A DNA stretch of 64,000 nt from Methanolobus vulcani (GTDB lineage: Archaea > Halobacteriota > Methanosarcinia > Methanosarcinales > Methanosarcinaceae), in NCBI RefSeq assembly GCF_006546655.1, contig NZ_VIAQ01000015.1, positions 186,001 through 250,000 on the forward strand, written 5' to 3'. Positions 22,893 to 43,704 of this stretch are shown in pieces. Position numbers and translations under genes: made by a program. The notes below the pieces were generated by a model that saw only the letters and a list, made by a program, of their open reading frames with translations, did not search any database and was not told the DNA's origin. Within the stretch, counting starts at the first letter, position 1. The number at the start of each line of letters is the position of its first letter.

Positions 22893-24065
22893 ATGTTTGA
22901 ACTTAGAATAGCCCTGAGGCACATAGGTGCACGAAAGCGACTCACGTTCTTTGCAGTATTTGCGGTAGCTCTTGCTATAGCTGTTATCGTAGTTCTCATG
23001 TCAATGATGACCGGGTTTACCGAGGAACTGATTGATTCCACAGTGGAGAACTCACCGCATATTGTGATCACTTCTTTGGATGATCAGGAAGATTATGTCC
23101 ACTTTTACAGTTATCATTCACAGCAGATAGCTGTAATGGATGGTGTGGAAGCCGTTTCTCCTGTATTTGTGGGGCAAGCTGCCATTAGTCACAAGGACAA
23201 TGCCGAAGGCATCAATCTCAATGGAATTGATCCTGTTGCAGAAGATGAAGTAATGCATATTTCGGATGATATTGTGTCAGGCGACCTTTTTTCCCTCAGC
23301 AGAAGCAACAATGGAATTGTCATCGGTGACAAGCTTGCAGAAGACCTGGAAGTTGTCATGGGTGATAAAGTCGATATAGTCATGCCAGGTTTTGGAACAA
23401 GGTCATTCAAGATTATGGGTATATTTGATACCGGAACATCCAGTGATGAGAGTATCGCATACGTCCGTTTTGATTCTGCCCTTGATTTCTTCCAGGAGAA
23501 CGGCGTTGCAAGTAAGATCAACGTAAGAGTAATCGATCCATTCCAGGCAGATGTTATCGCAGCTTCCATTGAAGGTCAGAACACAGGACTTGATGCTGTA
23601 AGCTGGATTGAGGCCAACAGTGAGATACTCGGTCTGCTCAACACTCAGGCTGTTATCGTCTGGCTCTACTATGGACTTATCTACATGATAGCAGGTTTTG
23701 GAATCGCAAACACACTTTTCACTGTTGTAATGGACAAAAAAAGGGAGATTGGGATGCTCATGGCAATGGGCGCATCAAAGCGGCATATTACAGTGATATT
23801 CCTGCTTGAATCACTTATACTTGGCACAATGGGTGTGCTATTGGGTTGTCTGCTTGGTTATGCTGGTTCTATGGCACTGGCATCATATCCGATAGACCTG
23901 CCGCAGGAAATGTACTTTGGCCTGACGACCATGCCAATTAAGACCGATCCCATGAACTATGCCTATGCAATAGTTTTCTCATTTTTCATCAACATAGTTG
24001 CAGGTGTCTATCCTGCAAGAAAGGCGGCTGCACTTGATCCGGTTGAAGCTATTGAAAGTGAATGA
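22893..24065 (+). CDS. LolC/E-like ABC transporter permease (FtsX/MacB superfamily)
   Basis: A 390-aa membrane protein with one N-terminal membrane segment, a large extracellular domain (about 45-260), and three C-terminal membrane segments with the FtsX core (DKKREIGMLMAMGASKRHITVIFLLESLILG) and the closing GVYPARKAAALDPVEAIESE. The start MFELRIALRHIGARKR and MTGFTEELIDSTVENSPHIVI resemble LolC/LolE more than MacB. It is about 48% alike by eye to the permease at 24753-25913. No ATPase is adjacent; the LolD-like protein at 16368 is a candidate partner. Confidence 0.88.
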   Translation: MFELRIALRHIGARKRLTFFAVFAVALAIAVIVVLMSMMTGFTEELIDSTVENSPHIVITSLDDQEDYVHFYSYHSQQIAVMDGVEAVSPVFVGQAAISHKDNAEGINLNGIDPVAEDEVMHISDDIVSGDLFSLSRSNNGIVIGDKLAEDLEVVMGDKVDIVMPGFGTRSFKIMGIFDTGTSSDESIAYVRFDSALDFFQENGVASKINVRVIDPFQADVIAASIEGQNTGLDAVSWIEANSEILGLLNTQAVIVWLYYGLIYMIAGFGIANTLFTVVMDKKREIGMLMAMGASKRHITVIFLLESLILGTMGVLLGCLLGYAGSMALASYPIDLPQEMYFGLTTMPIKTDPMNYAYAIVFSFFINIVAGVYPARKAAALDPVEAIESE

Positions 24066-24134: not shown

Positions 24135-24190
24135 GTTCGCAACCATACGAAAGATTTATATCGCAAGATGTTGTTAGTATGTTTGCGAAC
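24135..24190. promoter_or_regulatory. Inverted repeat flanking a TATA box (candidate operator pair)
   Basis: GTTCGCAACCATAC at 24135-24148 and GTATGTTTGCGAAC at 24177-24190 are inverted copies matching at 13 of 14 positions. They flank the TATA-like AAGATTTATATC (24151-24162), with the second arm at the predicted transcription start. The layout suits a repressor that covers promoter and start of the RNA described at 24181-24286. Confidence 0.5.
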
Positions 24191-24286
24191 GGGTGCCTAT
24201 TACTTAGTACCTCTCCAACCACTCCAATGTCACCATACCTGTGCATTAACCACCTTTGCCCGTTCGCACCCCCTATGTTTTTTATT
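24181..24286 (+). ncRNA. Candidate structured small RNA or attenuator
   Basis: A TATA-like box at about 24155-24162 predicts a start near 24181. The transcript would be closed by a perfect 10-bp stem, TGCGAACGGG (24184-24193) with CCCGTTCGCA (24259-24268), and ends in CCCCCTATG and a T6 run (24278-24283). The 65-base interior is strikingly C-rich and G-poor (for example CCTCTCCAACCACTCC and AACCACCTTT), so it could pair with ribosome-binding sites of the AAGGTGG or GGAGG type. No ORF is apparent. It ends 25 bases before the gene at 24311, so it may instead be that gene's leader. No known RNA family was recognised. Confidence 0.5.
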
Positions 24287-24310
24287 TATTAAGCGTGTCA
24301 ATTAGCTTAC

Positions 24311-24739
24311 ATGAATGTTGTTATCGAGACATCAAAATATAGTTTTATCAAATACAACAAAAAAGGTTCTCGGTTTGTAAAAGAGTTTCTGTCTCCGATA
24401 CCAACAATATTCAATTATGGTTTTATCGAAGGGAGCCTTGCTGAAGACGGCATGGAAAAAGATGTTGTCGTTATAGGTCCCCGTATGCCACAGGGCACAG
24501 TTCTGGACGTTAACAGGTTCCATGGTGTTGTAAAGTTTGTAGACGACTCTCTGGAAGACAACAAAGAAATTGTTTGCGAAGGTGGGTTTTACTCAAAACC
24601 GATCTTCTATTTTTATTTCCATCTTTACGCAACATTCAAGATTGTATATTACCTGATTCTCAAAAGAAAGCTTGCAAATTGTAGATTTGAAGGTATAGTG
24701 TGGTACAAGCAAAATAACGATGTTTCAGTTGGGATCTAA
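24311..24739 (+). CDS. Divergent soluble inorganic pyrophosphatase-like protein
   Basis: A 142-aa protein resembling the OB-fold of family I inorganic pyrophosphatase: VIETSKYSFIKYNKKG near the start, SPIPTIFNYGFIEGSLAEDG, then KDVVVIGPRMPQG. In true enzymes the segment after the tyrosine-glycine-phenylalanine motif carries three catalytic Asp residues (the pattern DGDPLD); here it reads EDGMEKD, so at least one metal ligand is absent. It is probably catalytically altered or inactive. It follows the candidate RNA and converges with the permease gene at 24753. Confidence 0.65.
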   Translation: MNVVIETSKYSFIKYNKKGSRFVKEFLSPIPTIFNYGFIEGSLAEDGMEKDVVVIGPRMPQGTVLDVNRFHGVVKFVDDSLEDNKEIVCEGGFYSKPIFYFYFHLYATFKIVYYLILKRKLANCRFEGIVWYKQNNDVSVGI

Positions 24740-41943: not shown

Positions 41944-43704
41944 ATGTGGAACCGCAAAAGCAAATGGAACCTTTTACTCTTTGCTGCAATAGTTTTGCTT
42001 TTGATAAGTTCTATCTTTTTTCTCTGGATGAAGACCAACATTGAGGTTCGGTCGGTTGTTGAAGAACAATATCAGAATCAGCAGTTATTGCTTACAAGGC
42101 ACATTGCAGGTACTATAGAACAGACTCTTAATGAAAGAGTCTCTCTTCTTGAAGTAATCGCCAAAACAGATTCGGGTGTACCCGAGGATAATTTTAAGTC
42201 GGATATAAAAAGTGTTTATGATATAGCTGGCTTATTCTATGTGGTAGAATATGTTGCAGAAAATGGGACTATAGTTTCAGGTTATCCGGAGGAATATGTT
42301 CCTCTGGGTCTAAATCTACATGAGAATGATGTATCCTACGCTTTTGAACATGTGAATGATACCGGAGATGTTTATATCACAGACCCCCTGAAACTTATGG
42401 AGGGTAATTATGGTTCCTTTATCTGGGTTCCTGTTTACGAGGGAGATATCTTCAGGGGAGCATTTATTGCTATTATCAAAGAATCTGATCTGAAAGACAG
42501 GTATGTGGTTGAATCCAACTCTTCAAGTTATGCATATCTTATTGATGAACGTGGCAGGATTCTTTATGAAGGTAACCAGAACTATGAGCGAGGTGCTCTC
42601 TATGTTGATATTTTCGGTTCCAACGTATCCGGTTTACAGGAAATTATAGCAGAGCAGATCAATGGCTCTGAAGGTAATGGAAAGTATTTCCTGCTTGAAA
42701 ACGAAACCATCTATGAAGAGAAACTTGTATCTTATTCTCCTATCAACTGGTACAATCAAAAGTGGTCACTGGCTCTGACAAGCCCTTCTTCAGAAGTTGA
42801 CCGGTTAATTGTTTCGGTTTACCTGAAGCTTTTCATTGTGGCGGCAGTTTCAGCTTTGTTTATTGTGTTTGTAAGTTCGTTTGTTGTTATTATTCTCTTT
42901 AACTGGAGTAAGAGCCTTGAAAAGGAAGTAGGAGAAAAGACTCAGGAGCTGAAAGAATCCAATGAATCCCTGAGGGCTGCAAATACTAAACTTAAGGAAC
43001 TGGACCGTCTGAAAACAGAATTCCTTTCCATTGTATCCCATGAGCTTAAAACTCCTCTTACGGCTATGAGGACATCCAGTGAATTCCTGCGGGAAAGTGA
43101 TGAATGCAGCATTCCTGTAAGACGTCAGATGCTTGATATTATCATCAGGAATATAGACCGGCAATCACGAATGGTGGATGATCTTCTGGATGTATCAAGA
43201 ATCGAGTCCAATCGCATGAAATATCATAAAGAGCATGTGAATGTCGTGGAAGCAGTTCATACATCCCTTGAGATGCTCTCAACCGTTCTCAAAGAGAAAA
43301 ACATGAATGTTCTTGTGGAAATTCCAGATAGTCTTCCTTCGGTTTATACTGACAGGGATAAACTGGTTCAGGTTTTCATCAATCTCCTGAACAATGCTGT
43401 AAAATTCAGTAAAAAGAATGGTACCGTCAGGGTATCTGCGCAGGAAGATGATGATTTTATTGAAATTAGTGTAAGTGACAATGGTATTGGTATGAGTGGG
43501 GAAGAGTTTGAAAAGGTCTTCGATAAATTCTACCAGATAGACAGCACTTCCACCCGCAAGGTCGGAGGGAGCGGTCTTGGCCTATCCATTGTGAAAGGTA
43601 TAATAGAAGGCCAGGGAGGAACTATATCTGTCACAAGTGAACAGGATAAAGGCAGTACTTTTGTTTTCACATTAAAGAAATCCATGGATGAAATTGATGG
43701 ATGA
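41944..43704 (+). CDS. Membrane sensor histidine kinase
   Basis: 586 aa: membrane segment at about 9-29, extracellular Cache-like sensor at about 30-285, membrane segment at about 295-322, a coiled-coil linker, HisKA with SHELKTPLTAMR, and HATPase with NLLNNAVKFSK, DNGIGM and GGSGLGLSIVKGIIEGQGG. It forms a two-gene unit with the HTH-REC regulator upstream and is convergent with the PAS kinase at 43725. Ligand unknown. Confidence 0.93.
   Translation: MWNRKSKWNLLLFAAIVLLLISSIFFLWMKTNIEVRSVVEEQYQNQQLLLTRHIAGTIEQTLNERVSLLEVIAKTDSGVPEDNFKSDIKSVYDIAGLFYVVEYVAENGTIVSGYPEEYVPLGLNLHENDVSYAFEHVNDTGDVYITDPLKLMEGNYGSFIWVPVYEGDIFRGAFIAIIKESDLKDRYVVESNSSSYAYLIDERGRILYEGNQNYERGALYVDIFGSNVSGLQEIIAEQINGSEGNGKYFLLENETIYEEKLVSYSPINWYNQKWSLALTSPSSEVDRLIVSVYLKLFIVAAVSALFIVFVSSFVVIILFNWSKSLEKEVGEKTQELKESNESLRAANTKLKELDRLKTEFLSIVSHELKTPLTAMRTSSEFLRESDECSIPVRRQMLDIIIRNIDRQSRMVDDLLDVSRIESNRMKYHKEHVNVVEAVHTSLEMLSTVLKEKNMNVLVEIPDSLPSVYTDRDKLVQVFINLLNNAVKFSKKNGTVRVSAQEDDDFIEISVSDNGIGMSGEEFEKVFDKFYQIDSTSTRKVGGSGLGLSIVKGIIEGQGGTISVTSEQDKGSTFVFTLKKSMDEIDG

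Follow-up and report, generated by a model that had tools for sequence, protein, structure and literature searches.

Methanogens are strict anaerobes that nevertheless survive oxygen, and in Escherichia coli a thiol redox regulator, OxyR, controls a small RNA gene, that of OxyS. In methanogens, the redox-sensitive repressor MsvR recognizes the inverted repeat TTCGTAN4TACGAA, or the tolerated form TTCGN7-9CGAA, placed over the BRE, and binds this box only when reduced; at rpoK of M. acetivorans, the motif alone is insufficient for MsvR binding (PMC3729527). Apart from msvR itself and the fpaA operon of Methanothermobacter, little is known of what MsvR controls. Among methanogen sRNAs, sRNA41 and sRNA154 of M. 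mazei act in trans by masking ribosome-binding sites (RBSs; PMC5867862), and M. psychrophilus has nine conserved cold-induced sRNAs that share an upstream 'cold box' (PMC5378194). Here we describe a locus which resembles each of these systems in part.

The region at 24135-24286 of the window, by which we mean the whole 64,000-nucleotide stretch of Methanolobus vulcani DNA analysed, very probably holds a real conserved sRNA gene, and the decisive evidence that it is real and not a product of chance is its conservation across genomes of the same genus, in most of which it aligns at 72-91%. A TATA box, TTTATAT (24155-24161, +), to which a TATA-like element corresponds in position in the orthologs, is closely preceded by a purine-rich BRE, CGAAAGA (+). 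The predicted RNA of about 100 nt (24182-24284, +), delimited by conservation and a covariance model, would start 20-25 nt past the TATA box and end inside a T-run. Its closing-stem arms, TGCGAACGGG (24184-24193, +) and CCCGTTCGCA (24259-24268, +), which emerge from sequence, fold and covariation alike, are perfect reverse complements over 10 bp, and a U24194-G24258 pair lengthens the stem to 11. The T-run TATGTTTTTTA (24274-24284, +; T6 at 24278-24283) is a probable terminator, with a CCTATGTTTTTT-like end kept in most orthologs. Folding of 24175-24290 yields -21.8 kcal/mol, which only 1 in 200 shuffles preserving dinucleotides equals (z = -2.97), and the closing stem belongs to the minimum-energy fold in all 24 orthologs tested. 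The initial annotation, made from this DNA alone, had placed TATA box, perfect 10-bp stem and T-run at these same coordinates, and its proposal, a small RNA gene that has a closing stem and is driven by an archaeal promoter of its own, draws strong support from conservation, from paralogy and from compensatory changes.

When a 191-base query was compared with 60 relatives, long matches were confined to Methanolobus, and 26 orthologs, which we call type A, are alignable from the promoter through stem and loop to the T-run. Their flanks are the same two genes in nearly all genomes of Methanolobus, encoding upstream an FtsX/MacB-type permease (22893-24065, +; PF02687, PF12704) and downstream a 142-aa protein with an inorganic-pyrophosphatase domain (24311-24739, +; PF00719, 8.2e-09), which serve as markers of the type-A context; signatures of both are present at 22 of 24 ortholog loci. 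The match of the 142-aa protein covers only positions 1-90 of the 153 in that domain and lies well under full-enzyme cut-offs, and the protein may be a non-enzymatic relative. A paralogous copy, type B, has hflX on one side in Methanolobus and a PHP phosphoesterase gene on the other (for example at G000:C18:54364-54439, minus strand), the interval which is also the RNA's place in most other genera. A covariance search in Methanosarcinaceae, one of the checks that the annotation had named, used a model built from 30 members and found members in 93 of 111 genomes; the 27 Methanolobus genomes each have two or more. Because the hflX-locus copy occurs in other genera and Methanolobus genomes carry at least two copies, the most plausible view of the window copy is that it arose by duplication specific to Methanolobus, the RNA beside hflX being the older one.

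An exact-stem pattern matched in 64 of 186 genomes of the order, exclusively in this family, and its reversed control gave no matches. Across about 85,000 species, a scan with named hits recovered 45 stretches, from Methanolobus, Methanococcoides, Methanosarcina, Methanomethylovorans and Methanosarcinaceae bins, one of them labelled ANME-3, together with one bin labelled only Euryarchaeota; all 45 are Methanosarcinaceae or loosely named archaeal bins which fit that family. Neither the window nor nine loci of the RNA family scored above the gathering threshold in Rfam 15, where permissive thresholds gave no matches or chance-level ones, and the family is absent from Rfam.

The gene thus defined is free-standing, with its own promoter and 3' end, and stands in at least two unrelated genomic contexts. 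Since the same architecture is kept before the pyrophosphatase-domain gene and between hflX and the PHP gene, the sRNA is likely to act in trans, as the annotation had supposed, and to be no simple leader of one gene; with good confidence, we expect it to regulate mRNAs. A cis attenuator or riboswitch-like element in the 5' leader of the gene at 24311 would agree with the shared strand and with a T-run just 27 nt from that gene's ATG, but in other genera it is the PHP gene next to hflX that the same RNA precedes, every Methanolobus has a second copy, no Rfam riboswitch matches, and a TATA-like TTTTATTTATTAA (24280-24292), 20-25 nt before the ATG, would allow the gene its own leaderless start, which together make a leader improbable.

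The strongest clue, absent from the initial annotation, lies in two palindromes around the sRNA promoter. O1, GTTCGCAACCATACGAAA (24135-24152), is an MsvR-type box of the form TTCGYA-N4-TRCGAA directly 5' of BRE/TATA, and O2, GTTAGTATGTTTGCGAAC (24173-24190), is a second, MsvR-like palindrome over the predicted start and the 5' stem arm, which we take as a putative operator. O1 agrees with the published MsvR box in sequence and in overlapping BRE/TATA, as the repeats of the msvR and Methanothermobacter fpaA operon promoters do; unlike at those promoters, the putative controlled unit would be a non-coding RNA, and a second palindrome covers the start site. O1 (GTTCGYA-N4-TRCGAAA) is present in every one of the 26 orthologs of type A and, among the members tabulated from other genera, in 19 of 21, agreeing at 12-14 of 14 defined positions and standing at -50 from the stem G (two at -49). 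O2 occurs in every tabulated member (11-14 of 14 positions), at -12 and 38 bp from O1. As type-B copies of Methanolobus and Methanomethylovorans-like copies keep O2 without O1, the RNA family itself does not depend on O1.

MsvR itself is encoded in 26 of 27 Methanolobus genomes (2.5e-76 in G000), the exception being a genome 70% complete. A search of five genomes with the O1-plus-TATA pattern, run before MsvR was thought of, also found a site just 5' of a Methanosarcina gene with a V4R domain, identified as msvR by NCBIfam (NF053755, 4.7e-84), and the promoter of an IscA/ErpA-like iron-sulfur (Fe-S) gene. In Methanolobus, the msvR promoters examined (10 of 10) carry TTCG-N8-CGAA ahead of TATA, a box which retains that core alone. 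The box before the TATA of the IscA/ErpA-like accessory gene (G000:C2:42391-42717, minus strand, box near 42800; loci L087 and L201-L227) recurs in all 27 Methanolobus genomes with scores of 13-14 of 14, against a maximum of 12 among 540 shuffles, and the gene is a second predicted MsvR target. Two Methanolobus genomes have a further box of this type beside an MFS-like gene, on the same flank in both and within a long tract with few genes (L111, G000:C19:43846-43863; L104, G005:C1:2780196-2780213), which is possibly the site of another non-coding RNA.

We consider direct control of the sRNA promoter by MsvR rather more probable than the alternatives. The main competitor retains a free-standing trans-acting sRNA and assigns the palindromes to another regulator or to the core promoter, with a different signal such as cold, nitrogen or growth phase. 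Motif presence is no proof of MsvR binding, as rpoK illustrates (PMC3729527), type-B copies retain the RNA after losing O1, and the cold-box sRNAs of M. psychrophilus offer a precedent within the same genus, being likewise conserved, intergenic and equipped with a common element 5' of the promoter. Compared by description, those sRNAs number nine per genome against two here, and O1-plus-TATA has a few occurrences only in the genomes searched. Sequence, spacing and position, moreover, agree exactly with published MsvR boxes, msvR and the Fe-S gene share the box, and MsvR co-occurs with the RNA, such that control by something other than MsvR seems unlikely, if a serious contender.

Compensatory stem changes in homologs, on whose presence the annotation had let its reading depend, are found in the wider family, in which two-sided changes affect 5 of 9 pairs of the closing helix (8 cells; equalled in 0 of 500 shuffles) and 99.3% of stem cells are paired, in an alignment that was fitted to the structure and whose weakest members (L314-L317), lying in other contexts, count less. 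L304 (GAG/CTC), L311 (with A-U at either end) and L037 illustrate this best. Among type-A copies of Methanolobus taken by themselves the stem hardly varies, and covariation is weak (2 pairs; 12 of 500 shuffles). The changes are unevenly placed, as the GCGAAC part, which overlaps O2, is nearly frozen, whereas covariation is seen in GGG/CCC; a G->A change in the 5' arm of L305-L307 and L312-L313 preserves the palindrome and breaks the RNA pair, while L314, which has no palindromes, shows two covarying pairs inside GCGAAC. This pattern suggests that RNA pairing and recognition of the DNA impose overlapping constraints on the closing stem.

One could go further and regard the inverted repeat as protein-binding DNA alone, a cluster of MsvR sites with no functional RNA. 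The arms contain the half-sites of the box (TGCGAAC and GTTCGCA, the latter within CCCGTTCGCA), GCGAAC barely varies, and the 5'-arm substitutions just described favour the box over the pair. Such a reading is very hard to reconcile with the highly conserved loop, which no palindrome explains, with compensatory changes in GGG/CCC, outside the box, in boxed members (L304, L311), with the two compensatory changes inside GCGAAC of the box-less candidate L314, and with a promoter and T-run spaced as in a transcript; we give it very little credence. Away from hflX and without O1, weak model matches in genus g6 (L314) and genus g8 (L315-L316) have stems that covary (GTGAGCGGG/CCCGCTCAC and GCGAACGGC/GCCGTTTGC), and it is possible that these are relocated relatives freed from operator constraint, or chance.

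A functional RNA, on our preferred reading, would act through its loop. The loops of the family are G-poor, with conserved single-stranded blocks of a kind typical, we infer, of target-binding regions. In orthologs, the conserved motifs are AGTACCTCTCCA (24206-24217, +), near-invariant across 26 orthologs, and CACCATACCTGTGCATT (24231-24247, +). The annotation had singled out CCTCTCC (24210-24216) and ACCACCTT (24249-24256) as complementary to RBSs; both are present, and the latter fails to be conserved, most orthologs having CCCCCTT. The proposed complementarity itself found no backing, in that pairing with 52 gene starts of the window gave -11.51 kcal/mol against -11.40 +/- 0.52 for shuffled sequence, and pairing with RBSs was no better than with control regions. 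In this test on 52 window genes, with composition-matched shuffles, type-A, type-B and Methanosarcina loops alike showed no RBS pairing beyond shuffles. Because gene starts were set by rule and a recognisable SD-like site occurs in only 14 of the 52, the loop may still have a selective target among genes. In five Methanolobus genomes, 1 of 11 inspected places with the complement of the CCTCTCC core before an ATG opens a long frame, a sodium:solute-symporter-like candidate (G000:C4), and pairing of the loop with the IscA-like 5' region is at chance (mean z +0.38).

Translated small ORFs are contained in certain Methanosarcina sRNAs, sRNA154 among them (PMC11456600), and a 45-codon frame crosses the present stretch, which could make it a short protein-coding gene or a dual-function RNA. 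That frame begins 5' of the predicted transcript start, however, an ATG within the loop is missing from some orthologs, and the distance between the stem arms falls about equally often into each of the three phases in 24 orthologs (9, 8, 7). As loop indels thus lack 3-nt phasing, we rejected a conserved peptide in the loop, and we hold a coding function to be the least probable of the explanations weighed here.

As an intergenic methanogen sRNA with its own promoter, the RNA is comparable to sRNA41 and sRNA154, and its Methanosarcina members carry CCCTCCTAATATCC in their loop, comparable to the anti-RBS stretches of those two. The nitrogen-controlled sRNA154 has two functional loops, in contrast to the one closing stem, open loop and different putative operator found here, and where sRNA41 and sRNA154 mask RBSs, the present RNA shows no RBS preference in the window test; these comparisons are by description. 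Representatives of the family in Methanosarcina may be among the sRNAs already numbered in M. mazei, or distinct from them. Of these, sRNA162 was rejected as the same RNA, as it lies at a different locus (MM2441-MM2442).

Together these observations lead us to favour, with somewhat better than even confidence, a free-standing trans-acting sRNA of ~100 nt that MsvR represses while reduced and releases once oxidised. Its transcription, MsvR binding, induction on oxidation and mRNA pairing are steps which we infer as follows. A strong archaeal promoter would start transcription at the base of the 10-bp closing stem, which would present a single-stranded loop of some 60 nt, poor in G and rich in C, A and U, and the T-run would terminate the RNA. 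During normal anaerobic growth, a reduced MsvR dimer would bind O1 over the BRE and O2 over the start, closing the promoter; oxidation of MsvR would free it, and the sRNA would be made alongside the Fe-S assembly protein, its exposed loop pairing with mRNAs to alter their translation or stability. The likeness to OxyS is one of logic, a thiol redox regulator of an sRNA gene, without homology, and MsvR would be a repressor freed on oxidation, not an activator. More tentatively, and with slightly less than even confidence, the RNA might be an MsvR-repressed, oxygen-released sRNA across the Methanosarcinaceae, with OxyS-like logic, an operator within the DNA of its own stem, co-regulation with Fe-S assembly, and a duplication in Methanolobus after which one copy retained the upstream operator and the other lost it.

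In kind this is an ordinary archaeal sRNA, yet it is well supported, new to Rfam, and linked by a specific operator to a redox regulator. If our reading is true, it is a candidate redox-controlled small RNA of methanogens, tied to the oxygen-stress repressor MsvR, for which the conserved sRNA and the IscA/ErpA-like gene provide a first and a second candidate target. The family is represented in the genetically tractable Methanosarcina as well as in an ANME-3-type genome. In two Methanococcoides-type genomes (L045 in G125, L047 in G127), the RNA gene occurs as tandem pairs ~230 bp apart, each copy with its own O1 and TATA.
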